Notes under the pieces: generated by a model
Database searches by the model: none
What the model was told of the DNA's origin: nothing
The model's input: only the letters and a program-made list of their open reading frames with translations
In this document: positions 17,810 through 29,858 of the stretch, piece after piece
How the letters are laid out: the number at the start of each line of letters is the position of its first letter
Numbering within the stretch: the stretch's first letter is position 1
Translations under genes and position numbers: made by a program
Assembly (NCBI RefSeq): GCF_002872335.1
Contig: NZ_NJAG01000001.1
Span: 186,001 to 250,000, forward strand
From: Siphonobacter sp. BAB-5405
GTDB taxonomy: Bacteria > Bacteroidota > Bacteroidia > Cytophagales > Spirosomataceae
Direction of reading: 5' to 3'
DNA: 64,000 bases

Positions 17810-17836
17810 GTTGTTTCCTTAACTTTTACCCCTACC

Positions 17837-17869
17837 GTTGTTGGTGTTTAGCGTAGCGTCACCAACAAC
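17837..17869 (+). repeat. REP-like hairpin copy 1 (forward)
   Basis: Perfect 10-bp arms GTTGTTGGTG / CACCAACAAC around the 13-nt core TTTAGCGTAGCGT. First of eight family members between 17.8 and 24 kb. Confidence 0.85.
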
Positions 17870-18008
17870 TCAGGTGGTACGACGCAGGTAAATCAGTAGG
17901 CTGTCAGTATAAAATGAACACATGATTAGACTTTCAAACACCTAAATTCAGTGATTACAAGTGAAATTCTGCTAAAAGATTCGTAAAACAGTAGGGAGTA
18001 TACTTAGA

Positions 18009-18041
18009 GTTGTTGGTAATGCTACGTTAAATATCAACAAC
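18009..18041 (-). repeat. REP-like hairpin copy 2 (reverse, diverged)
   Basis: Arms GTTGTTGGTA / TATCAACAAC pair over 10 positions with one G-T, around a 13-nt core ATGCTACGTTAAA. The arm change is compensated (last G to A opposite C to T), so the fold is kept. Opposite orientation to copy 1. Confidence 0.7.
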
Positions 18042-18052
18042 GGCAGATACAG

Positions 18053-18397
18053 CTATGTTTTACGTAACCAAATACGAATAGTAACAATAGCGGATTTATA
18101 GCATAATGGAATGGTATTACTATCATCTTTCAGAGCTAATACTTGATGCATTGGTATTATCCTCATAGCAAATTTATCCATTATTTTTCCAAAAGTTAAT
18201 AAGCTTTTTACTGTGGCATTATCATTGGCATCATAGCTGAAAATGTACGGTCCATTTTCTTTCCAGTATTGACGTAATAATAGTCGCCAAACTGCTTTTT
18301 CATAGTAATTATTTCGACCATGTAAAAATTTAGCTAAAGCTACTTCTTGCTTGAAATTTGACAGATTTTGTTTGATCTGCACCTGTATTTTTCCCAC
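18053..18397 (-). CDS. Hypothetical small protein, AT-rich
   Basis: 114-aa basic open frame between REP copies 2 and 3. The N-terminal half is helical and lysine-rich (MGKIQVQIKQNLSNFKQE); I recognise no domain, signal or membrane helix. Base composition matches the adjacent RAYT gene rather than the GH43 operon, which suggests joint acquisition. Could be a decayed fragment; the 3' end stops 12 bp from REP copy 2. Confidence 0.35.
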   Translation of the reverse strand: MGKIQVQIKQNLSNFKQEVALAKFLHGRNNYYEKAVWRLLLRQYWKENGPYIFSYDANDNATVKSLLTFGKIMDKFAMRIIPMHQVLALKDDSNTIPLCYKSAIVTIRIWLRKT

Positions 18398-18484
18398 TGT
18401 TCAAATTATTTAAAGGTTTAACATATCGGTCTAGAATACGAAAATGAAGATGTAGATCTTTCCTAAGGATAATTGTTCTCCGCC

Positions 18485-18517
18485 GTTGTTGGTGTTTAGC
18501 GTAGCGTCACCAACAAC
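18485..18517 (+). repeat. REP-like hairpin copy 3 (forward), 6 bp after the RAYT stop codon
   Basis: Arms GTTGTTGGTG / CACCAACAAC with the TTTAGCGTAGCGT core, identical to copy 1. It sits directly at the 3' side of the transposase gene. Confidence 0.85.
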
Positions 18518-18523
18518 TCAGCC

Positions 18524-19042
18524 TCATTCACTATAATGAGTAAGAAATCCAAACGCATCCTGATTAAATTCATAAAATCGGGCACTAGAATAATAATAAT
18601 CTTCGGGTATGTGGGCCAAATTCCAGTGCGGTTGAATAGGATTATTATGAATATAGGTTAGCTTTTCTAGTATGACTTTATTTGAGTAGCAGTAGATAGA
18701 TAAAGAATTTCTTTCCCAAATCTGATATTTTCGATCACCCTGTGTACTTGCTAGTTTTTCTAAAACTGCTGGATGGTTTTTTTGAATATCATTTTTAATG
18801 TACTGACCCGTAAATTTCAAAAAATCTCGTTGTACTTCTGACTTGCTAAAGGGTGGCATTATCTTCCAAATCAAGTGAAGGTGATTTGGCATAATTACAA
18901 ATCCATATACAATGACTCTATTATTTTCTACTAAAAAGCGTAAACTGTCAATGATGATTTGCTTATATTTATCAGGTTTGAGTACGTGTTTCCAGGAAAG
19001 AATAGTCGCTGTGAAAAAAGCGGGATACTGATGCTCATGCAT
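18524..19042 (-). CDS. REP-associated tyrosine transposase (RAYT, Y1/IS200-like HUH nuclease)
   Basis: 172-aa single-strand DNA transposase of the Y1 (PF01797) type. The HUH motif is visible as MPNHLHLIW (His54 and His56); the candidate nucleophile is Tyr81 in FTGQYIK. KLTYIHNNPI near residue 135 is a further hallmark of the RAYT branch, seen in chromosomal domesticated transposases. It is flanked by matching inverted hairpin repeats: copy 3 is 6 bp beyond the stop and copy 4 about 150 bp before the start. No IS200 ends, no TnpB. AT-rich compared with neighbours. The likely role is mobilisation or processing of the REP-like hairpins. Confidence 0.88.
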   Translation of the reverse strand: MHEHQYPAFFTATILSWKHVLKPDKYKQIIIDSLRFLVENNRVIVYGFVIMPNHLHLIWKIMPPFSKSEVQRDFLKFTGQYIKNDIQKNHPAVLEKLASTQGDRKYQIWERNSLSIYCYSNKVILEKLTYIHNNPIQPHWNLAHIPEDYYYSSARFYEFNQDAFGFLTHYSE

Positions 19043-19194
19043 GAGTTTTAGCTATTTCTAACAAATATGGTTTATAGCTCTATAAAGCTATACGCCGAAT
19101 AATAAGTACTGATTGTTAGAGACACTTCGTTAAGGCAAGAGTAGAGTAATACGAAGTAAAGTTTCGTTCGATGATTAATTCTTATTGAAGTGAA

Positions 19195-19227
19195 GTTGTT
19201 GGTGACGCTATGCTAAACACCAACAAC
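19195..19227 (-). repeat. REP-like hairpin copy 4 (reverse), upstream of RAYT
   Basis: Same arms with core ACGCTATGCTAAA, the reverse complement of the forward core with one change. With copy 3 it brackets the RAYT gene as an inverted pair. Confidence 0.85.
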
Positions 19228-19279
19228 GGCGAAGAGAGATCATCATTATAAAGATCATAACTAATCTCAGGCATAACCA

Positions 19280-19316
19280 CCGTTGTTGGTGACGCTACGC
19301 TAAACACCAACAACGG
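19280..19316 (-). repeat. REP-like hairpin copy 5 (reverse)
   Basis: Longest stem of the set: 12-bp arms CCGTTGTTGGTG / CACCAACAACGG around ACGCTACGCTAAA. Together with copy 4 it fills most of the 320-bp gap between RAYT and the Imm5-like gene. Confidence 0.85.
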
Positions 19317-19362
19317 CAAGAGCGTGTCTACCTATTCCACTACAACCGCTCAACCCGAAAAA

Positions 19363-19824
19363 TCAAATCTCCTTCAGCAACTTTATCTGTGCTTCTCTTT
19401 CTTTCCTTACTTCTTCCAGATCGCCGGGAAACAGTTTATTGATCATCGTCACCGCAAAATCAGTGGCCCATAAGCCATGATATTTCGTATGCGGGCTAGC
19501 CGCTATCTGTGCCTGCGTTCTTAAAAATTTTACTTTAGCCGGGTCTTTTTCAAATTTAGCTATTCGGCTAATTTCCAGACTCAAATTCCTGGCTTCGTGA
19601 TAATTGGTCTTTCCATCGAGCCATCTTTGCATGGCTTCGAATGCTGCTCTCATTTCGTGGCAGGGTTCGAAGCCCGTTTTCTCGATCAGATGTTGTCCGA
19701 ATACCAAACAAAACTGCACCATTTCCCGGTGGCTTTTGGTATCGTACAGAGTTATAAACTCCTCCTTCAACGCAGGAATATCTTCTATTTTGCCGACTAA
19801 CCGCTGGTATTCGTAAATATTCAT
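19363..19824 (-). CDS. Putative immunity protein (Imm5-like)
   Basis: 153-aa all-helical cytosolic protein. The C-terminal half (HEMRAAFEAMQRWLDGK ... HGLWATDFAVTMI) resembles the Imm5-type immunity domain, which protects against polymorphic toxins. No toxin gene is adjacent, so it would be an orphan immunity gene. Lies between REP copies and the Arr homologue, in the accessory zone. The domain assignment is by eye and tentative. Confidence 0.5.
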   Translation of the reverse strand: MNIYEYQRLVGKIEDIPALKEEFITLYDTKSHREMVQFCLVFGQHLIEKTGFEPCHEMRAAFEAMQRWLDGKTNYHEARNLSLEISRIAKFEKDPAKVKFLRTQAQIAASPHTKYHGLWATDFAVTMINKLFPGDLEEVRKEREAQIKLLKEI

Positions 19825-19970
19825 AAGCTCCTGTTACCTTAGAAATCATTAACTGTTCATACCGACCTCACTCCGCCGTCGCTGGTAACGACTTGCCAAA
19901 CAACTGCAAAGTCAAAACCAAGCCCAAGTATAAACGAAAGCTTTTACTCAACAACCAAACTACCCAACGA

Positions 19971-20387
19971 ATGGATCAGACCAACGATTTGTCTTCCATT
20001 AGCTTCTATCATGGAACCAAGGCCGATTTGAAACCGGGTGATCTCATTCGACCGGGCTTTCAATCCAACTACGGTCAGCGGAATCAAGCAAAATACATCT
20101 ACTTAACCGCCACCCTGGATGCCGCCATCTGGGGTGCCGAGCTGGCTGTGGGTGAAGGGCCTGAACGAATCTACCAGGTAGAACCTACCGGCCCTATTGA
20201 GGACGACCCTAACCTGACCGATAAAAAATTTCCGGGGAACCCTACCCGCTCCTATCGTTCCTTACAGCCGCTCAAGGTCGTTGGTGAAATTACGGAATGG
20301 CAGGGGCATACGCCCGAGCAACTGAAAGCCATGAAGGATAACCTGGAGCGATTAAAACAACTGGGGATTGAAGCCATCGAAGATTAA
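19971..20387 (+). CDS. arr: Arr-like NAD+-rifamycin ADP-ribosyltransferase
   Basis: 138-aa homologue of Arr, which inactivates rifamycins by transferring ADP-ribose from NAD+. The start is the ATG at 19971 (MDQTND), giving the usual Arr length; an open frame extends upstream to 19893 but adds basic low-quality sequence. Visible Arr features are SFYHGTKADLKPGDLI at the start, KYIYLTATLDAAIWGAELA in the NAD pocket, IYQVEPTGPIEDDPN, and SYRSLQPLKVVGEI towards the end. Chromosomal copies occur in many environmental bacteria, so this need not reflect drug exposure. Actual activity is not shown by sequence. Confidence 0.9.
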   Translation: MDQTNDLSSISFYHGTKADLKPGDLIRPGFQSNYGQRNQAKYIYLTATLDAAIWGAELAVGEGPERIYQVEPTGPIEDDPNLTDKKFPGNPTRSYRSLQPLKVVGEITEWQGHTPEQLKAMKDNLERLKQLGIEAIED

Positions 20388-20576
20388 TTCCTAGGTTCCG
20401 GAATCACGCCGGGGAGCGGTTGTACTCCTAGGTTGATCGGTACCAACGGCCATTCATCCGAAAAAACACGTATGAACGGTTCTCTGGCTTTTCTTTACTA
20501 CTGGAACAGCTCACTCGCCTGGTGAAGGCTTCCGCTCTTTACGACCAAAATCCAGTACTCTACTCACTACGAATCG

Positions 20577-21227
20577 ATGGAAGAAATCAAACCCTACACC
20601 AGCCTTGAGGAAGCGATGCGGGAGCTAGACAATGGTGGTCGATTTTACAATCTTTTCACCGAGGCTCAAGATGAGGTCATTACCCCGGCCGAACTGTCTA
20701 AAGTATCGGGTGTATTTCTTACGAAACAGAAAATGATTCTCTTTCTGGAAATGGCCCTTTGCCGATTGGACGAAAAAGCAAAAGCAGAGGTATTATCAAA
20801 ACTGGATGATCGATTGCAACTGGATTATCAGAACTATAAACCTTTGCAGATAAGCGTTTCGGAAGCAATTCAAGTGCATTCTTCTTCCAATATTATTCTT
20901 ACGGGAACGCCTAAACCCAATACTTCGAAATCAGCTCTGGAAGGCTTTGTGCTCATTGCCTTTGGAAAAACTTTTATGCTGATTCCCACCGTTGATTTAT
21001 ACGACATTTACGAACTAACCGACGAACAGACAGCCGAGAAACTTCTCATTGCTCACAGCAAACGTTCGGTAAAACTACCCGAACAAAAGCTGCTGGTGGG
21101 TGGGATCTGGAAACAATTTCCTGCTCCGTCGGATAAAGATCAGGCATCGACTCCTGATGTCCTGGAACGATTAACGTCGAAACAAAGCGGTAAACGCTAT
21201 TTGGAAATTCATTATTTCATTGCCTAA
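20577..21227 (+). CDS. Hypothetical protein, 216 aa
   Basis: Soluble protein with mixed helices and strands; no signal peptide, membrane helix or domain I recognise. It begins MEEIKPYTSLEEAMRELDNGG and has a strand-rich centre (FVLIAFGKTFMLIPTV). Codon use is like the chromosomal core. Stands alone, 189 bp after arr, with convergent GH43 downstream. Confidence 0.6.
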   Translation: MEEIKPYTSLEEAMRELDNGGRFYNLFTEAQDEVITPAELSKVSGVFLTKQKMILFLEMALCRLDEKAKAEVLSKLDDRLQLDYQNYKPLQISVSEAIQVHSSSNIILTGTPKPNTSKSALEGFVLIAFGKTFMLIPTVDLYDIYELTDEQTAEKLLIAHSKRSVKLPEQKLLVGGIWKQFPAPSDKDQASTPDVLERLTSKQSGKRYLEIHYFIA

Positions 21228-21474
21228 AGGCCTTCATCTGTTTTTCCGGTTGTTGAGCCTCCTACGCTAGATACGAACCCTGGCGTAGTGAGTTCTCCTT
21301 TCTTTCTGACCTCATTTCAAATTTTTTCCTGTACTACTTTAGCAACCTAAAGGTATTGTCTATGAGGTAGCCAATGCCTACGCCAGGATACCGCCGGTCG
21401 TAAAGATTCGGCTTACGAAAATCAGCCTACGACTTCGGCGTTCCCGGGAGGCATCGACTACTTGGTTTTTGAAC

Positions 21475-23433
21475 TTATTTAGATGAGCTGGACGTATTCG
21501 TAACGCCTTCACTAGTCATTATGACCCGTTTCAAGGTCCCGTTCTTGTTATACTGTAGTTTATCAATGCATATCGAGCGACTAAAACTGCTACCATCGGT
21601 TTGAATACCGCCGTTGTGGTAGATGAAGTACCACTGCCCTTTATGCTGAACAATCGCCTGGTGGTTGGTATTACTATTGCCGGCAATTTCGTTGAGAATG
21701 CCTTTGTATTCGTAAGGGCCTTCGATTGCATCGGCCACGGCGTACGCAATTTTCTCCGGGAAACCCGTCGCGTAACTCAGGTAGTATTTGCCTTTGTGCG
21801 TATGAATCCAGGGAGCTTCCGTAAAATCGAAACCGGGGAACTGCACCCGTTTGATTTCTCCTTCGATTTCAATCATATTTTTCTTGAGCCGGGCATAATA
21901 ACATTCGCGATTGCCCCAGAAAAGCCAGGCCTGATCCTTGGCATCGATATACACCGTGGGGTCAATACAGGCCCAGGAATGGGACGAAGCGAAACAATCC
22001 TTGTTGGTAAGCAAGGGTTTTCCCAAGGCATCTTTGTAAGGGCCTTCCGGTCGATCGGCTACTGCCACGCCAATACCCGACCAGTTGGTGCTGATGTACC
22101 AGTAATACTTTCCGTTTCTTTCAATGACCTGCCCCGCGTACGCATCTCCACTCTTCGCCCAGGGGAAATTCGTTATTTGTAAGGGCACGGGATACTGGGT
22201 CCACGTTTGTAAATCCGTGGTTGAATACACCAGCCAGTCTTTCATTTTATACCCACTTTGTCCACCCGCGAAATCGTGACCCGCAAATAACCACAGGGTA
22301 TCCCCTTTCACCAGAGCCGCCGGATCAGCCGTGTACGCATGCGTGATGATGGGGTTGCCTTTGGACGTGAAGGTGTAGCGATCGGAAGCCTCGACGGGTT
22401 GTAACAAGTCGTTGGGAACCCCGCCCCATTTCGCCTGCAGGCGGCGGGCTTCTTCGCGGGTAATGCCGATGACACTGCCGTGCCGGGGATTAAAGTTTTT
22501 GGTAAAGGACTCGGGTTTATCCGTAAACTGATACAGATCAGTGCTCCGCTGAAACTCATACCGCAGGTTGGTGTACAGGTCATACATCAGGATATACTCG
22601 TCCGAATCATTGCGTTTGAAGACACTGGAACCTTCCACCACAATCTTTTGATCCGAATACGCATCCAGGTACTTAAAATCCTCCACCCAGGGTCCGCTCA
22701 GCGACTTCGAAGTGGCCTGTTGAATGCCATTTTTAATTTCCTTCCCACTCTCATCTTTGGTATTCCCCTTGAAGAACAGATGGTAGGTGCCGTCTTTATA
22801 TACAATATCACCGTCAATAGCTCCGTACTTGGCCCGGAACATCAGCTTGGGTTCTGCTTCAAAACCGGTAAAATCCGTATTGGCGTAGGCGGAATAAAAA
22901 TCAAGCTTGGAATCGTCTTTGAAACGTACGGTGAAGTAGATCAGATACTTTTTGGCCTGTGGATCATAAATGGTTTGCGGAGCCCATACCCATTGCACTT
23001 TCCCAAACGTCTGCGGATAGGTTTTGGCCAGGTCGATACTCCGGTGCGTCCAATCTACCAGATTAGTGGATCGCAACAGGACAATCCCCGGATTGCTGCC
23101 CCAGCCGTTCTTACCGACGAACATATCGGTCGCCGTCAAGTAGAAGGTATTTCCATCCTCCCCCCGTAACAAATGCGGATCCCGAATTCCACCCGTTTGC
23201 GAGATGTCGCTGGAGGCAAGGATAGGCTGGTTATTATTTAAAGCAGACCAATGGATGGCATCCTTGCTTATCCCTAGGCGTAACTGCTCCTGCTTGAGCG
23301 GGTCTCCTGAACCCTCGAAGTAAGCAAATAGATAGCCTTCGAAGGACGATAAATTCTTTTTAGTTTGAGTAAAAGCGGACACACTGCCTAGCAGGACGAA
23401 TAGGACAGTCAGTACTCGGTTACGTAAAATCAT
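21475..23433 (-). CDS. Two-module GH43-type glycoside hydrolase, secreted
   Basis: 652-aa exported enzyme with two five-bladed propeller modules. The start at 23433 gives a signal peptide (VLTVLFVLLGSVSAFTQ); a longer frame to 23490 is less likely. Module 1 (about 30-340) has GIRDPHLLRGEDG and GAIDGDIVY; module 2 (about 355-640) has AYTADPAALVKG, CIDPTVYID and a Glu in FTEAPWIHTHKG. It probably serves the same arabinose/xylose polymer pathway as the operon at 10.4-17.8 kb but is transcribed separately on the other strand and is cut off from it by the accessory zone. Substrate not certain. Confidence 0.87.
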   Translation of the reverse strand: MILRNRVLTVLFVLLGSVSAFTQTKKNLSSFEGYLFAYFEGSGDPLKQEQLRLGISKDAIHWSALNNNQPILASSDISQTGGIRDPHLLRGEDGNTFYLTATDMFVGKNGWGSNPGIVLLRSTNLVDWTHRSIDLAKTYPQTFGKVQWVWAPQTIYDPQAKKYLIYFTVRFKDDSKLDFYSAYANTDFTGFEAEPKLMFRAKYGAIDGDIVYKDGTYHLFFKGNTKDESGKEIKNGIQQATSKSLSGPWVEDFKYLDAYSDQKIVVEGSSVFKRNDSDEYILMYDLYTNLRYEFQRSTDLYQFTDKPESFTKNFNPRHGSVIGITREEARRLQAKWGGVPNDLLQPVEASDRYTFTSKGNPIITHAYTADPAALVKGDTLWLFAGHDFAGGQSGYKMKDWLVYSTTDLQTWTQYPVPLQITNFPWAKSGDAYAGQVIERNGKYYWYISTNWSGIGVAVADRPEGPYKDALGKPLLTNKDCFASSHSWACIDPTVYIDAKDQAWLFWGNRECYYARLKKNMIEIEGEIKRVQFPGFDFTEAPWIHTHKGKYYLSYATGFPEKIAYAVADAIEGPYEYKGILNEIAGNSNTNHQAIVQHKGQWYFIYHNGGIQTDGSSFSRSICIDKLQYNKNGTLKRVIMTSEGVTNTSSSSK

Positions 23434-23704
23434 TTGAGAAGCTAAGTAGGATACGAAAGAAAGAGGTTTACCAGGTTTCTGTTCAGGCAAAGATGTAAGC
23501 TTCTGTGAAAGATTATCCTGTCCAAGAAGTTGTCATCATTCATCTGGGCTCATGGAGTGCAGGTATCACTTTTGCTGGGGCTTGGGGCGGTGATGATAGG
23601 TATCCGTTGCTTTACGACGGATCTGCATTCCTGGAGGATCCTCTACTCATATGTTGAAACGAGTGATTCATACTCATTACGGAGCTATCAATCGTAAGAA
23701 TTTC

Positions 23705-23731
23705 GCTGTTGGTATTTAGTATAACGTCACC
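23705..23731 (+). repeat. REP-like hairpin copy 6 (forward, right arm truncated)
   Basis: Degenerate left arm GCTGTTGGTA, core TTTAGTATAACGT, then only CACC of the right arm before copy 7 begins six bases later. Looks like a copy interrupted or worn down beside a newer one. Confidence 0.6.
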
Positions 23732-23737
23732 TCTGCC

Positions 23738-23770
23738 GTTGTTGGTGTTTAGCGTAGCGTCACCAACAAC
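23738..23770 (+). repeat. REP-like hairpin copy 7 (forward)
   Basis: Identical to copies 1 and 3: arms GTTGTTGGTG / CACCAACAAC, core TTTAGCGTAGCGT. Faces copy 8 across 109 bp. Confidence 0.85.
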
Positions 23771-23879
23771 TTTATTACACTTCGGTTGTACAAAGAGTCT
23801 TGAACGAAAATTTACTTAGTATTATTGTATCGACAAATTCTATTTATTCACGATTTAGACAAACCTTATTATCACGTGA

Positions 23880-23912
23880 GTTGTTGGTGACGCTATGCCA
23901 AACACCAACAAC
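23880..23912 (-). repeat. REP-like hairpin copy 8 (reverse)
   Basis: Same arms, core ACGCTATGCCAAA. With copy 7 it forms a forward/reverse pair like that around RAYT, but with no gene in the 109-bp interval. Confidence 0.85.
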
Positions 23913-23986
23913 GGCAGTAAATACAAACAACTACGAGAACATTGGGAATAGGTAAAGACTAAATAAGGCCTAAATAGACTAGATTA

Positions 23987-24529
23987 CTATTGTCGAGAAT
24001 TAAGGTGATCTATGTATAATCGAAGATTATTTGAAATTTTTAACGCAACTTCCGGTATATAAGGAATAACATTTTGAAAATTCACTTCACTTGTTAGGGG
24101 AAATCCATGATATGAATTCAAATAATTTCTTATTTTTTGTGTTAATTCCAAATCAAGCGTCAATAGAGGATCATTTTGTTCGTAATCATGATAGTTTGTT
24201 AGATGAGTAAAACAGTTACCAAAGTTATAGACTTCTGGTGCCCAATGATTATACTGACTTGCAATATTTACCATTTTACGGTCTGTAATCCTTTCCCCAT
24301 TTTTCCTCCACTCAACGCCATTCACTGTATCTTCAATAAGTTTATTTAATTCTAAATCATTCGTTAAAGTATGCAAATAGCAAACTCGAATTAAAGAATC
24401 TAATTCCTGCCGCAGTAAAGATATACAGGTACCAAAAAGCTCCTGCTCATGTAATAATCTAATTGATTTAGTGTTCTCATTAGAACGTTGCATTAATATT
24501 CTCTTGAAATCAGCTAATTTAGGAGTCAT
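23987..24529 (-). CDS. Helical protein with a HEPN-like R-N-x5-H motif, AT-rich
   Basis: 180-aa helix-rich soluble protein, unrecognised by family. RNYLNSYH (Arg134 to His141) fits the R-x(4-6)-H pattern with a polar residue after Arg that marks HEPN RNase toxins; SLLRQELDSLIRVCYLH and FTHLTNYHDY are further helices. It is the last of three AT-rich minus-strand genes below dnaE and is followed by the REP copies. The HEPN suggestion is motif-based only; the motif is short enough to occur by chance. Confidence 0.6.
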   Translation of the reverse strand: MTPKLADFKRILMQRSNENTKSIRLLHEQELFGTCISLLRQELDSLIRVCYLHTLTNDLELNKLIEDTVNGVEWRKNGERITDRKMVNIASQYNHWAPEVYNFGNCFTHLTNYHDYEQNDPLLTLDLELTQKIRNYLNSYHGFPLTSEVNFQNVIPYIPEVALKISNNLRLYIDHLNSRQ

Positions 24530-24600
24530 AAAATTTTATTTTCAGTATTATATTATATTAGATCCGCCACACATCCAATACAATATTACATACATAGTTA

Positions 24601-25290
24601 TTAGTAAAATAACTTTTTAAAAAATCCTAATGTCTGTTCTTTCCCCTGTATTATTGTCACCAAACCACTTACGAATGTTACAAGTCCGCCTATACCAGTA
24701 AGGGTATTAAAAATTAGATTTGATTTAATTTTTCCAACAGTACTATCGGGAATTATACCAAACCAATTGAAAATATAGATTGGCAAACTAAAGAACTCTT
24801 TGAATCCTTGCTTAAGCCAAATGAATGGATTTTTCAGCTGTTTAAAATTTTCTTTTGTTAGTTGCTCAACAATTCCAATGTACCTTAGTAAACAATCGTC
24901 AACTGAATTAACGTCAAAATCCGTTATTGTACTATCTCTGAATTTTGGAATAGTGTTCAGCACTATATTATAGTTACTTATCTTGTATTGCCGAAAAGGT
25001 CCTATATACTCCATAAGTCCAGTTTGTCCAAGCATACCTTGCATTTTATTTGCATTCTTTGTCAACCAAACATATCTTTCATGATCAATTTCTCCACGTC
25101 TTTCAAAGCTGTCGTATTTTTTATAGAAATTGTTTGTAAAAATTACAAATTGTTCTCTGTATTCTAATGTAAAATTTAGCTTTTCCTGTAATAGTACAAA
25201 ACTCTTTCGTAAGGTAAAGGAACCTATCACCAAAATTGAAATGAAAAATATAATAATTATTAGTATCATGCTATAGTGTATTTGTAGCAT
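24601..25290 (-). CDS. Membrane-anchored hypothetical protein, AT-rich
   Basis: 229-aa protein with an N-terminal transmembrane helix (about 8-26, ILIIIIFFISILVIGSF), a long soluble helical part, an aromatic amphipathic stretch near 165-190 (FFSLPIYIFNWFGIIP), and a second hydrophobic helix near 200-216. No recognised domain. 71 bp separate it from the HEPN-like gene, so the two may be co-transcribed. Could be the membrane effector or sensor of a small defence cassette, but this is inference from neighbours. Confidence 0.6.
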   Translation of the reverse strand: MLQIHYSMILIIIIFFISILVIGSFTLRKSFVLLQEKLNFTLEYREQFVIFTNNFYKKYDSFERRGEIDHERYVWLTKNANKMQGMLGQTGLMEYIGPFRQYKISNYNIVLNTIPKFRDSTITDFDVNSVDDCLLRYIGIVEQLTKENFKQLKNPFIWLKQGFKEFFSLPIYIFNWFGIIPDSTVGKIKSNLIFNTLTGIGGLVTFVSGLVTIIQGKEQTLGFFKKLFY

Positions 25291-25332
25291 CTTTCAGGCA
25301 ACTATTAAATATACGAATATTACTCAGTACAT

Positions 25333-25385
25333 CTGTGACGTTTCAGTGCTGGAACATCACAGACGCCCATAGCACCGAAACATCA
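25333..25385. repeat. Three-armed imperfect inverted repeat
   Basis: CTGTGACGTTTC (25333-25344) can pair with GGAACATCACAG (25351-25362; 10 of 12), while TGACGTTTCAGTGCT (25336-25350) can also pair with AGCACCGAAACATCA (25371-25385; 13 of 15). The two folds exclude each other. It lies between the Mrr-type and membrane-protein genes. Confidence 0.5.
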
Positions 25386-25473
25386 AAATGCACTTCTCCC
25401 AAATCCGCGTTGAAAATGCAGACTAACAATAACTAATCTAACTTGATTTATAAATGCGTAAAATTTGACTAAA

Positions 25474-26139
25474 CTAATTAAACATTAACCGTAGGTTACT
25501 TTCAACATAATTTTTGATCATAGATAACAACTCATTACCATCGATTAATTTCAAATAATACTTATAAGTACTTGATGCATACTTTTTTATAACATCAGCG
25601 GAGAACTTTAAATTCGTAACCATTATACCTGTACTAGCTTTAAGTTCATTTATTTTAAAAAGAAATCTTTCTATTACATCAACACCTATTGCTTTCTTTT
25701 TACTTGTCTTGCATTCTATTAAATGATTAGTAGGCACTGTATCATCTTTTCTTGCAATCATATCATATCCACCATCTCTTGTCTTCTTAGTTGGTTCTAC
25801 ATCATAACCTAATGATATAAAGACTCTTCTTACTATACATTCAAAATCATAATGATGTGTACTAAATATTTTTTTCTTATCTCTATAAATTTCCAGTATT
25901 ATTTCGTCAATTTCATCCAGTTCATTTTTTGTTTTAACTTTATTAAATTGTATTATAGCTTTAGCATCTTTACCAACTATCTCATCACTAACTATATTAT
26001 TTACGTTTACATCTATTAAGTCACCTCCAAAAGTTGATATAAAACTTTCAATAATTGGAACTATTGGATTACTAGCAACAACGCCATTAATAGCTGCCAA
26101 CTGCTTAAGCAATGCAGAAGAACTAACGATGAATTTCAT
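25474..26139 (-). CDS. Mrr-type restriction endonuclease fused to a DnaN (sliding clamp) N-terminal segment
   Basis: 221-aa protein. Residues 94-215 form an Mrr_cat (PF04471-type) nuclease domain: YDFECIVRRVF with Glu100, GGYDMIAR with Asp126, and LIECKTSKK with Glu142 and Lys144, the D...ExK active site; a LIDGNELLSMI tail is typical. Residues 1 to about 35, and perhaps to 50, read as the start of a Bacteroidota DNA polymerase III beta clamp (MKFIVSSSALLKQLAAINGV then NPIVPIIESF); the clamp does not continue after that. About 60-90 is a charged linker. It is AT-rich in third codon positions throughout, unlike dnaE, which ends 116 bp upstream on the same strand. Such Mrr domains cut foreign, often modified, DNA. 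The fusion could direct it to the replisome or be a chance capture of a start region. Confidence 0.85.
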   Translation of the reverse strand: MKFIVSSSALLKQLAAINGVVASNPIVPIIESFISTFGGDLIDVNVNNIVSDEIVGKDAKAIIQFNKVKTKNELDEIDEIILEIYRDKKKIFSTHHYDFECIVRRVFISLGYDVEPTKKTRDGGYDMIARKDDTVPTNHLIECKTSKKKAIGVDVIERFLFKINELKASTGIMVTNLKFSADVIKKYASSTYKYYLKLIDGNELLSMIKNYVESNLRLMFN

Positions 26140-26196
26140 TTGTGCATATTTAATTGATGGAAATCTATAGTAGTTATGCTCCTAGTAAATATACCA

Positions 26197-26245
26197 TAAA
26201 AAGTAAGACCCACCAGCCAAAAGCCGATGGGTCTTACTTTTTATA
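26197..26245 (-). terminator. Terminator of dnaE
   Basis: Perfect 17-bp stem (26197-26213 with 26229-26245) with a 15-nt loop, ending in a U run on the minus strand just after the dnaE stop. It separates dnaE from the nuclease gene, so the latter needs its own promoter. Confidence 0.85.
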
Positions 26246-26255
26246 ACAAAAACTC

Positions 26256-29200
26256 TTAATTCAACCGAAAACTATTCTTCCCTACCAGCTGCTCCAACCC
26301 CTTAATCAAATCATTCGAAACGTTGATTTTATTGAAGCGGCTTTGCAAGACTACCTCTACCGGACTTTCCGAGTCTTTGAGTTTCACGAACAAGTTACAG
26401 GTGCCCGGGTTTTGTTTGAACAACTCACTCAAGCTGGCCACCAATTCGCCGCTTACTTCCTGCAAATTGATCTCCAGACTCAGCTGCTTACACATCTTCT
26501 CCCGTACTTCGGGCAGGAGCTGAATTTGTGTGGCTTTGAACTCGTACTGGCCCTGGTTCCGCCAGCTCGGTTGTAGTTTTCCCCGAATGTACAGGAAACG
26601 ATCCTGGGCTACGTATTGTCCCATTTTAACGTAATCGTCGCCAAACAGGGCCAACTCCATGCTTCCGGCATAATCTTCAATCGTAAACAGACAGAAGGGA
26701 TTGCCATTTTTGGCGTATCGCTCCTGATACTTCGTTACGATTCCGGCAATGCGGACATCGCGGTTGTACCAGTTCTTCTCTTCTTCCGAATCGCGGAAAC
26801 GGTCGAGCGTAATGTCGCAGAAGTTATCCAGCTCAATCCGGAACTCATCCAGCGGGTGACCGGAAATGTATACCCCAATCACATCGCGTTCCTGGTTGAG
26901 TTCGATCATCCGGGCCCAGGGTTCCGTCGACGGTACGCGGGGGGCCATCATGTTGGCTCCGCCACCCCCACTCATCGCTCCGAACAGTGATACCTGAGCG
27001 GCGGCTTTTTCTTCGTGGTGTTTGTTGGCGTACCGAATCAGTGTTTCAATAAACGTACCCGTTCCCGTATCGGCAAAAAACGCCGCCCGGTTGATGCCAA
27101 AGCCGTCGAAGGCTCCGGCATAGGCCAGCGATTCCAGCGTTTTCTTGTTCACCGTACGCAGGTTGATTCGGGTGACGAAATCAAAAATATCCTGGTAGGG
27201 ACCATTGGCGTTTCGTTCCTGAATGATGCTATCCACGGCCGCATCGCCCGTACCCTTGATTCCACCCAGGCCAAACCGAATCTGTTTTTTCTTATTAACG
27301 TTGAATTCCTTGATGGATTCGTTCACGTCGGGACCTAATACGTCGAGACCCATCCGGCGGGTTTCTTCCATGAAGAGCGTAATCTTCTTGATATCGCCCA
27401 GCTCGTTGGTTAAGTTGGCCGCCATGTACTCTTCCGGGTAGTGGGCCTTCAGGTAGGCCGTCTGGTAGGCCACGAACGCGTAACAGGTCGAGTGCGACTT
27501 GTTGAAGGCGTACTGAGCGAAGGCTTCCCAGTCGGTCCAGACCTTTTCGAGTTTCTTGGCGTCCAGACCTTTGGCGACGGCTCCTTCCATGAATTTGCCC
27601 TTCATCTTATCCAGCGTCGCCCGGTCTTTCTTACCCATGGCCTTCCGCAGTACGTCGGCGTCCCCTTTGGAGAAGCCCGCCAGTTTCTGCGACAGCAACA
27701 TCACCTGCTCCTGGTACACTGTGATTCCGTAGGTATCGGCCAGGTATTCTTCCATTTCGGGAAGGTCATAGACAACGGGTTTACGTCCGTGTTTCCGATC
27801 AATAAATTCAGGAATGTACTGAATCGGACCGGGTCGGTACAGGGCGTTCATGGCAATAAGGTCCTCAAACCGCGTCGGTTTCAGTTCCTTCATGTACTTC
27901 TGCATCCCGGCACTTTCGTACTGGAAGATTGCGTAGGTTTCACCGCGTTGGAACAGCTCGTAGGTCTTCGCATCGTCGAGCGGCAGGCTGTCCAGGTCAA
28001 TTTCCACACCGTGGTTTTGCCGGATTAGAGCCAGTGCGTTTTTCAGGATCGTCAGCGTGGACAATCCCAAAAAGTCCATCTTGATTACCCCGGCATCCTC
28101 AATCACTTTCCCTTCAAACTGGGTAATAAACCAGTCCGAATCTTTCGAGGTACACACGGGAATAATCTCCGTCAAATCCATCGGAGCAATGATGATCCCC
28201 GCCGCGTGGATACCCGTACCCCGCACGGAACCTTCCAGTTTCAGGGCTTCGGTTAGCACCTTTCCGGCGACGGTATTGGATTTCATCGTATCCCGCAATT
28301 TCTGGATATTCTGAATCTCCTCGCCGCCCCAGCCTTCTTTATCCTTCACGCCGCCGGGTCCGTCGATGGGAGCCAGCAGGACGCGTTGCAGGTTCAGGTC
28401 CAGGGGTTTTTCCGGAATCAGTTTGGTCAGGATATTCGTCTCATCCAGCGGCAAATCCAGTACGCGGCCTACGTCTTTGATCGCCGACTTGGCTTTCATC
28501 CCCGTATAGCTCACAATCTGGGCTACCTGATTTCGACCGTATTTATCAACGACGTAATCAATCACTTTCTGGCGACCGGCATCGTCAAAGTCCGTATCAA
28601 TATCGGGCATGGATTTCCGGTCAGGGTTCAGGAAACGCTCGAACAGTAGGTTGTACTTGATCGGGTCAATGTTCGTAATGCCAATACAGTACGCCACCGC
28701 CGAACCCGCCGCCGAGCCCCGGCCCGGCCCGACAAATACGCCAATGTCGCGACCCGCCTTGATGAAGTCCATTACAATGAGGAAGTACCCGGCGAAACCC
28801 ATCGTTTTAATGGTATGCAGCTCGAAGTTGAGGCGTTCCTCGGCTTCGGGCGAGATGGTTTCGTAGCGTTGTCGGGCTCCTTCAAATGTCAGGTGACGCA
28901 GGTATTCCCACTGGTTCAGGGTATCATCGGCGTGTACCTTGAATTCGTTGGGAATGGGGAAATTAGGCAGCAGAATGTCTTTCTTCAGTTTCGGTTCGAA
29001 ACACTTGTCGACAATCTCCTGCGTATTATCCAGGCCTTCGGGAATGTGTCCCCAGACCTGCAACATTTCGTTCTTCGTCTTGAAATAAAATTGGTCGTTG
29101 TAAAAAGCAAACCGCGAGCCGCGGGGCATGGCCTCGTCATCCGAGAAGTCCTTGGCCGAGGGCGTACTCTGCTTTTCACCGGTGTTGACGCACAGCAAAA

Positions 29201-29858
29201 TGTCGTGGGCGTTGGCATCCTGCTGATCTACGTAGTGACTATCATTGGAGACAATCACCTTTACATTGTGCTTACGGGCAAACTTGAGCAGCACCTCATT
29301 GACCCGCTTCTGATCTGGGATTTCGTGATCCTGTAGTTCGACGTAGAAGTCTTCGCCGAAGATATTCAGCCACCACAGAAACTCCTTTTCACCTTCCTCT
29401 TCGCCCTTCCGCAGAATGGCTTTCGGTACGCTAGCCCCGATACAACAGGTCGTAGCGATGAGGCCTTCGTGGTACTGTTCGATCAGGGTTTTATCAATCC
29501 GGGGGTACTTGCCGTACATGCCTTCGATGAACCCCAGCGAACAGAGCTTGACCAGATTTCGGTACCCAACTTCGTTTTTGGCCAGCATCAGCTGGTGGTA
29601 CCGAACGTCTTTCTTTTCCTTGGTAAACTTCCGCTCATGCCGATCCTGTACTACGTAAAATTCACAGCCTACAATGGGTTTTACCCCGTGCTTTCCGGCT
29701 TCGGCCACGAATTTGAACACGCCGAACATATTACCGTGGTCGGTAATGGCTACTGCCGAATGTCCGTCCGCCTTGGCTTTCTTGAACATACCGCCAATGT
29801 CAGCGGCACCATCGAGCAAGGAAAATTTGGTATGGCAGTGAAGATGGGAAAAATGCAT
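26256..29858 (-). CDS. dnaE: DNA polymerase III alpha subunit
   Basis: 1200-aa catalytic subunit of the replicative polymerase. The PHP domain is at about 3-70 (HLHCHTKFSLLDGA, ITDHGNMFG), the palm with the catalytic PDIDTDFDD near residue 415, and GRGSAAGSAVAY just before. The internal sliding-clamp-binding motif QVSLF (codons near 26982-26996) follows the helix-hairpin-helix region, and the C-terminal OB fold begins near VRIAGIVTKYQ. Length and order are normal for DnaE. Monocistronic, with a strong terminator. Confidence 0.97.
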   Translation of the reverse strand: MHFSHLHCHTKFSLLDGAADIGGMFKKAKADGHSAVAITDHGNMFGVFKFVAEAGKHGVKPIVGCEFYVVQDRHERKFTKEKKDVRYHQLMLAKNEVGYRNLVKLCSLGFIEGMYGKYPRIDKTLIEQYHEGLIATTCCIGASVPKAILRKGEEEGEKEFLWWLNIFGEDFYVELQDHEIPDQKRVNEVLLKFARKHNVKVIVSNDSHYVDQQDANAHDILLCVNTGEKQSTPSAKDFSDDEAMPRGSRFAFYNDQFYFKTKNEMLQVWGHIPEGLDNTQEIVDKCFEPKLKKDILLPNFPIPNEFKVHADDTLNQWEYLRHLTFEGARQRYETISPEAEERLNFELHTIKTMGFAGYFLIVMDFIKAGRDIGVFVGPGRGSAAGSAVAYCIGITNIDPIKYNLLFERFLNPDRKSMPDIDTDFDDAGRQKVIDYVVDKYGRNQVAQIVSYTGMKAKSAIKDVGRVLDLPLDETNILTKLIPEKPLDLNLQRVLLAPIDGPGGVKDKEGWGGEEIQNIQKLRDTMKSNTVAGKVLTEALKLEGSVRGTGIHAAGIIIAPMDLTEIIPVCTSKDSDWFITQFEGKVIEDAGVIKMDFLGLSTLTILKNALALIRQNHGVEIDLDSLPLDDAKTYELFQRGETYAIFQYESAGMQKYMKELKPTRFEDLIAMNALYRPGPIQYIPEFIDRKHGRKPVVYDLPEMEEYLADTYGITVYQEQVMLLSQKLAGFSKGDADVLRKAMGKKDRATLDKMKGKFMEGAVAKGLDAKKLEKVWTDWEAFAQYAFNKSHSTCYAFVAYQTAYLKAHYPEEYMAANLTNELGDIKKITLFMEETRRMGLDVLGPDVNESIKEFNVNKKKQIRFGLGGIKGTGDAAVDSIIQERNANGPYQDIFDFVTRINLRTVNKKTLESLAYAGAFDGFGINRAAFFADTGTGTFIETLIRYANKHHEEKAAAQVSLFGAMSGGGGANMMAPRVPSTEPWARMIELNQERDVIGVYISGHPLDEFRIELDNFCDITLDRFRDSEEEKNWYNRDVRIAGIVTKYQERYAKNGNPFCLFTIEDYAGSMELALFGDDYVKMGQYVAQDRFLYIRGKLQPSWRNQGQYEFKATQIQLLPEVREKMCKQLSLEINLQEVSGELVASLSELFKQNPGTCNLFVKLKDSESPVEVVLQSRFNKINVSNDLIKGLEQLVGKNSFRLN

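Follow-up and report, generated by a model that had tools for sequence, protein, structure and literature searches.

How does a restriction-type nuclease come to begin with the first residues of the sliding clamp of the cell that carries it, and what might such a beginning be good for? The question is raised by one gene of the window (the whole stretch of 64,000 nucleotides analysed here), whose parts are the following.

25474..26139, minus strand: fusion gene of 221 amino acids with an ATG start, made of a host-matched DnaN segment, a linker and an Mrr nuclease
26041..26139, minus strand: codons 1-33, a copy of the host DnaN start (31/33 amino acids identical)
25915..26040, minus strand: codons 34-75, hypervariable linker, from the alignment of fusions
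25477..25914, minus strand: codons 76-221, Mrr-type PD-(D/E)XK nuclease domain, from the PF04471 match and the model
25762..25764, minus strand: codon of Asp126, invariant in 7/7 fusions
25708..25716, minus strand: codons of Glu142-Cys143-Lys144, the ExK motif, invariant in 7/7 fusions

The gene starts 116 bp from the end of dnaE (26256..29858, minus strand), the distance first noted for it, and the same frame read on the plus strand contains 11 stops. The preliminary description had pointed to an unusual layout, a DnaN start placed on an Mrr nuclease; the layout is real and is kept across four genera. A chance or artefactual origin is ruled out by full-length relatives in these four genera and in two named Spirosoma genomes, S. 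endophyticum DSM 26130 (61% identity over the best segment) and S. arboris HMF4905 (59%). Among the papers listed by a search of the literature, none describes such a DnaN-Mrr fusion.

That the N-terminus is a near-exact DnaN start, as first proposed, is apparent from the host's own clamp, a protein of 374 residues encoded on another contig: 31 of the first 33 residues are identical, including all of the first 29, and a protein search of its own genome with the fusion recovers dnaN at E 7e-14. By Pfam, the window protein taken alone would leave the DnaN part looking unproven, since the DnaN model covers residues 1-31 with an E value of 0.05, under the Pfam cut-off. With PF00712, G188 stands above the cut-off (E 5.5e-7) and the five remaining fusions fall below it (5.8e-5 to 8e-3), so that Pfam alone accepts one fusion in seven. 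An hhalign comparison of DnaN with a profile of the seven fusion N-termini gives a probability of 99.7% (E 1.1e-26), and among solved structures the fusion profile matches beta clamp 8dt6 (residues 1-57, E 7.9e-8) and the clamp of E. coli (residues 1-50, E about 1e-3), with equal residue numbers at both ends. The DnaN match is thus significant by own-genome and profile comparisons. A weaker similarity suspected up to residue 50 was borne out in the Spirosoma fusions, but not in the window protein, where local alignment gives nothing convincing past residue 33. Compared with bacterial DnaN (PF00712; PDB 8dt6 and 1mmi), which the fusion resembles over residues 1-33 and, in the family profile, to about residue 57, the rest of domain I and the whole of domains II and III are missing; some 33-50 residues of domain I are recognisable, the three ring-forming clamp domains are absent, and a ring is impossible.

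The retained segment corresponds to clamp strand 1, pore helix 1, the DNA-contact loop I and the start of strand 2. In E. coli numbering, it spans pore residues K12, Q15 and Q16 and loop I (P20-L27), which are at or near the DNA according to an extract of PMC5042465. In the better AlphaFold model, residues 1-6 and 20-71 have a pLDDT below 50, even with DnaN starts added to the alignment, and in the first model the DnaN segment was likewise devoid of a confident fold.

The remainder of the protein is the Mrr nuclease that had been recognised in it. Mrr_cat (PF04471) matches residues 95-208 with an E value of 1.3e-19 (70.8 bits for a cut-off of 21), and six of the six other fusions also pass this cut-off. 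Asp126, Glu142 and Lys144, singled out from the start, are present and, together with Glu100 and Asp122, invariant in all seven fusions. By analogy with Mrr-type restriction endonucleases (PF04471; MspJI and AspBHI by fold), whose nuclease domain carries the same D and ExK residues, Asp126 and the ExK residues would be catalytic and the fusion is presumably an active nuclease. In the second model, the block means of pLDDT in the nuclease are 78-97 (52 at the last residue), and its best Foldseek matches are MspJI (E 7.1e-7) and AspBHI (E 1.7e-6). Unlike these enzymes, the fusion has no domain for reading modified bases, and its N-terminus is a clamp fragment. The nuclease also matches the C-terminal part of the PADLOC candidates PDC-S02, ZorD and type IV enzymes. 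The Mrr-like PDC-S02 is similar in its C-terminal half (E 2.2e-12, profile positions 164-311 of 334), whereas its first 163 positions are unmatched in the fusion and a full-length match is absent.

Within the taxonomic family, 8 of 222 genomes give fusion matches at E <=1e-16. Seven are intact and belong to four genera: one in the genus of the window (g1), three in g33 (two of whose carriers are, by sequence, the named Spirosoma genomes), one in g10 and two in g9. The eighth, G181, is broken; its fusion remnants (L016/L033) lie beside a clpB-like gene and comprise a frame of 59 codons that holds the DnaN start and, apart from it, a piece of the nuclease end. With the nuclease part alone as query and a limit of 1e-8, the 222 genomes yield the same eight, then three distant Mrr relatives (E 3e-12 to 3e-9), so that all seven intact members of the nuclease clade in these genomes bear a DnaN start. 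The distant relatives are G156, whose N-terminus was read, and G101 and G161, each with one DnaN-start match, that of G161 in a frame of 386 amino acids, the length of a clamp. In five other genomes of the window's genus dnaN was found, and no fusion. Fourteen family genomes have more than one DnaN-start match, six of them not already known as fusion carriers. In four of these (G082, G115, G141 and G202) the extra matches are clamp-length frames only, of at least 380 amino acids (translations were read for two of the three frames of G115 and the second of G202, and for none in G082 or G141); G131 has a short match at a contig edge, and in G209 one match is the true dnaN cut by the contig end, the other a clamp-like frame of 386 amino acids. 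Second, divergent full-length DnaN genes occur in several family genomes (L103 in G115, L025 in G181, L106 in G202 and L105 in G209).

Overlapping samples of the order (390 genomes), class (395) and phylum (395), searched with a family profile at limits of 1e-16, 1e-23 and 1e-23 and with at most seven candidates scored per genome, yielded no further fusion. Known fusions were recovered from the order sample (G000, G117, G186) and from the class and phylum samples (G000 alone); the other matches were Mrr-only, with DnaN genes also appearing at the looser limit. The preliminary description had considered that close Mrr homologues might carry the same sequence as an unrelated N-terminus. The N-termini of G384, G531, G729 and G156 were read, those of G849 and G822 being left aside, and these nearest non-fusion Mrr relatives carry other N-termini. 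Matches were found in 1 of 50,697 phage records and 68 of 72,556 plasmid records; among the matches listed (the phage one and 20 of the 68 plasmid ones) none has a DnaN start, all covering the nuclease part only. A viral scan for phage-borne fusions gave two IMG/VR contigs, both with a whole DnaN: the full-length genes, at L063:2875-4119 and L064:654-1898, resemble those of these hosts, and phages of related bacteria may thus bring their own clamp.

The three segments of the fusion differ sharply in conservation. Between genera (representatives G000, G186, G188, G117 and G107), identity is 16-27/33 in residues 1-33, 5-18 of 41-42 in the linker (residues 34-75) and 62-98 of 143-146 in the rest; the linker of the window fusion shares 5-9 of 41-42 residues with those of G186, G188, G117 and G107. 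Across the seven fusions, invariant columns number 13/33 in residues 1-33, 0/41 in residues 34-74 and 43/147 in residues 75-221. These figures describe a conserved peptide on a hypervariable linker ahead of a conserved nuclease.

What sets the peptide apart is that it follows its host. Eight DnaN positions of the segment vary among the four genera (4, 5, 9, 13, 15, 16, 21 and 23), which, with one genome per genus (G000, G188, G117 and G107), makes 32 cells. The fusion carries the residue of its own host in 31 of these, and that of the other hosts in 23 of 96; fusion-to-fusion agreement is 11/48. Positions 35 and 36 also vary, beyond the matched segment, and show the own-host residue in 4 of 8 cells, or 35/40 over residues 1-36. 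The corresponding Fisher value, 5e-14, treats related cells as independent and is descriptive only; when labels are permuted among the four genera, the observed pairing ranks first of 24. Compared with 65 DnaNs of 18 genera, the seven fusions and the G181 remnant all find their best match within their own genus, with one tie (G186 with g11). The matching extends below the genus. In g10, the G117 fusion has Leu4 and Thr16, like its own DnaN and that of the fusion-less G119 and unlike those of G115, G116 and G118; in g9, the fusions carry Val4-Ile5-Thr9, which is present in 4 of the 11 g9 DnaNs read (G107, G114, G112 and G113). Positions 15, 16, 21 and 23 fall among the pore and loop I residues. 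The DnaN piece therefore matches each host, and this host matching is the new result.

The N-terminus and the nuclease have separate histories. A tree was built from residues 1-34 with 31 DnaN rows picked to cover the spread of those fetched (LG+G4, 34 columns, the G181 remnant left out). In it, every fusion nests with the DnaN of its own lineage; the support is starred for g9, g10 and Spirosoma, whereas the window fusion has 89/84 and no star. On an alignment of 34 columns support is low at most forks, and it is lacking for 17 of 29 inner branches. A single clade of the seven fusion N-termini is rejected (log-likelihood 37 lower, p-AU 0.0009), and the fusion label requires five changes on the tree, four of them forced by starred branches. 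Set against three relatives, the nuclease parts fall into a single clade (99/97), the long outgroup branch being flagged. Movement of the nuclease between genera is weakly tested: when G000 is constrained to group with the g9 pair, the arrangement to which DnaN identities point, p-AU is 0.035, and the best nuclease tree places G117 with Spirosoma, as in DnaN, without support. One way to read these trees, compatible with any mechanism, is that the segment was fused once, in an ancient event, and has since changed in step with the host DnaN by point mutation. The single nuclease clade fits such co-evolution, as does the complete synonymous saturation described below, which exceeds that between dnaN genes within a genus; the reading asks, however, for parallel changes at about eight positions in four lineages and must accommodate the rejection of a single N-terminal clade on 34 columns, so that we consider it possible but rather improbable.

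The codons tell how old the resemblance is. Over codons 1-33, the window fusion and its own dnaN use the same codon at 10 of 30 same-residue positions, for 8.6 expected by chance, and in four genomes of four genera 36 such codons agree where 37.2 are expected from fusion codon usage; synonymous differences per site between fusion and own dnaN reach 0.83-1.08. With codon agreement at the chance level, recent gene conversion is excluded, and so is a recent duplication of the dnaN start, the match to the DNA of the own genome being 70/99 nt. The capture of a dnaN start region by an incoming nuclease gene, one of the possibilities raised at the outset, thus holds in an extended form (N-termini grouping with their own lineage in four genera, on one nuclease clade) but not as a simple recent capture. 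Selection against nucleotide identity with dnaN is not claimed: G183 is low (5 seen, 10.0 expected), and the sum over four genera is at expectation. The fusions are AT-rich (third-position GC of 12-36%, for 33-69% in dnaN genes). In g10, the dnaN genes of G117 and G119 have 25/31 codons in common in the first stretch and a fraction of 0.55 afterwards; set beside the residues shared by the G117 fusion, this means either that synonymous change has been fast in the fusion, as AT bias would give, or that its residues were matched by selection. Under both alternatives the peptide is kept while its codons were randomised. As a separate observation, dnaN of the window's genus (L017 against L005-L009) keeps 21-32 of 31-32 identical codons in its first 33, and a fraction of 0.44-0.49 of the last 300 codons in four of the five comparisons, G002 being at 0.80. 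In this genus the DNA at the 5' end of dnaN is thus under strong constraint, one that the fusion does not share with dnaN.

It might be argued that the first dnaN codons were merely borrowed for expression or N-terminal processing, the peptide having no role in recognition. This would account for an N-terminus that follows host lineages, and among the three Spirosoma fusions dS is indeed lower in the first 33 codons (0.38-0.76) than in the nuclease codons (1.48-1.75), so that the start of the DNA or RNA may itself be constrained to some degree; a function of the mRNA start could account for the lower variability at these synonymous sites. Upstream DNA also resembles that of the own dnaN beyond shuffles in G114 (0/200 as high), and slightly in G186 (4/200) and G188 (3/200), but is at the shuffle level in the other four of seven, the window included. 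Moreover, a peptide conserved over 33 residues is long for an initiation signal, and residues that stay while codons are randomised mean that selection acts on the peptide. In the same Spirosoma fusions dN/dS is 0.13-0.15 in residues 1-33, 0.2-0.44 in the linker and 0.04-0.07 in the nuclease. The DnaN peptide itself thus appears to be held by selection, and we regard borrowing of the start region alone as unlikely.

A copy of the host clamp on a nuclease suggests that a piece of the host replication machinery serves as bait or handle, perhaps against viruses. Our preferred reading, to which we give a probability of roughly 0.38, is that of a single-gene defence nuclease with a clamp bait as sensor. 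The protein would be an Mrr-type DNA nuclease that works on its own, probably as an anti-phage or suicide effector; its sensor, the 33-residue copy of the host clamp, would be displayed on the hypervariable linker. A phage factor that takes hold of the clamp by way of the DNA channel would take hold of the bait as well, and this capture would position or release the nuclease. A bait must resemble the local clamp; hence, each lineage's bait would have been taken from, or adapted to, the host dnaN and then held by selection at the protein level. The stand-alone Mrr relatives G384, G531 and G729, with other N-termini in the same place, and the match of the nuclease to defence candidates suggest that the DnaN segment fills a sensor slot. 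The role in defence, the function as bait and the nature of any trigger are deduced from this arrangement. Protein Gp168 of phage Twort gives an idea of a possible kind of trigger. According to an extract of PMC11139829, it binds and blocks the clamp in the DNA channel, the face from which the segment comes, and is active on selected bacteria only. It is a Staphylococcus precedent, however; the literature search found none for relatives of Spirosoma, nor any clamp-targeting phage protein for these hosts. Against the bait, the models give the segment alone no confident clamp-like fold, so that it may not show the channel face.

Host matching could also stem from binding to the clamp itself, or from an old capture followed by slow change. 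The DnaN segment could insert into, or pair with, domain I of the host clamp, taking the place of its first strand and helix in nascent or open clamps, and so carry the nuclease to replication forks, a form of tethering that we hold to be improbable. Tethering accounts for a sequence equal to the local DnaN, pore positions included, and a segment that is not predicted to fold alone is what one expects if folding needs a partner. Presumably, however, the segment lacks the partner-binding cleft and the dimer interface of the clamp, and loading of the nuclease at every fork would harm the cell unless it were further controlled, no such control being seen nearby. Domain I of the clamp is dynamic and unfolds cooperatively, according to an extract of PMC11139829, and this flexibility also fits an exchange of segments. 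Alternatively, the intact clamp or the clamp loader could bind the segment and silence the nuclease, which would then be freed once an infecting phage removes or captures the clamp. Such a guard fits the same host matching and the placing of the segment where stand-alone Mrr relatives have other N-terminal regions, but nothing in the sequence points to binding of the clamp by the segment, and horizontal spread would be dangerous until matching evolves; we think it quite unlikely. Bait, tether and guard would all require host matching, and the sequence cannot tell them apart; the replisome tethering and the decoy put forward in the preliminary description are both possible.

To return to the bait, a tentative and less probable elaboration is that of an integrated decoy: a nuclease with a host-updated bait, a piece of an essential replication protein, that was re-matched at least four times, once for every new host lineage, and afterwards kept by selection. 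It would be the bacterial counterpart of those immune receptors of plants that contain integrated decoy domains. Should the bait reading be true, bacteria employ duplicates of essential proteins of their own to sense infection, and host matching lets more baits be found from sequence alone, the rule being to search effector domains for short end fragments of housekeeping proteins with residues that follow the host lineage. It would also point to undiscovered Bacteroidota phage proteins that attack the DNA channel of the clamp. Even if the segment acts as tether or guard, a nuclease matched to the clamp of its own host would connect replication with defence in a new way.

The distribution of the fusion is patchy and tied to variable loci, as in anti-phage defence systems: 8 of 222 family genomes (one broken), a variable spot in the window's genus, and loci that differ between genera. 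Two further features delimit this spot in the window.

23915..26205, no strand: accessory stretch that holds the fusion and two further ORFs, unmatched in the sister genome G002
26196..26244, no strand: inverted repeat with 22-nt arms below dnaE, at the edge of the variable spot

At the place of the accessory stretch (about 23915-26205) G002 carries other small genes, and the inverted repeat is probably the dnaE terminator. The Spirosoma copies, three intact and one broken, share one locus, beside the clpB-like gene. The g9 fusion lies near what we take, from its translation, to be a primosomal-helicase-like gene, and the g10 fusion beside genes whose translations we assume to be peptidase-like. 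The neighbours of the copies examined, read by eye, revealed neither a partner gene in common nor a recognisable defence gene, which weighs against the bait reading. The two ORFs that adjoin the window fusion (24601-25290 and 23987-24529) have no family above cut-off, and neither was seen, by eye, beside other fusions. A repeat of about 37 nt occurs in both orientations around the accessory genes in 17828-23917, with seven close copies (at 17828, 18008, 18476, 19194, 19281, 23729 and 23879) and weaker ones elsewhere; G002 has this repeat too, both within and next to the equivalent spot. A rifampin ADP-ribosyltransferase gene lies at 19971-20387 (Arr-ms, E 4.3e-51).
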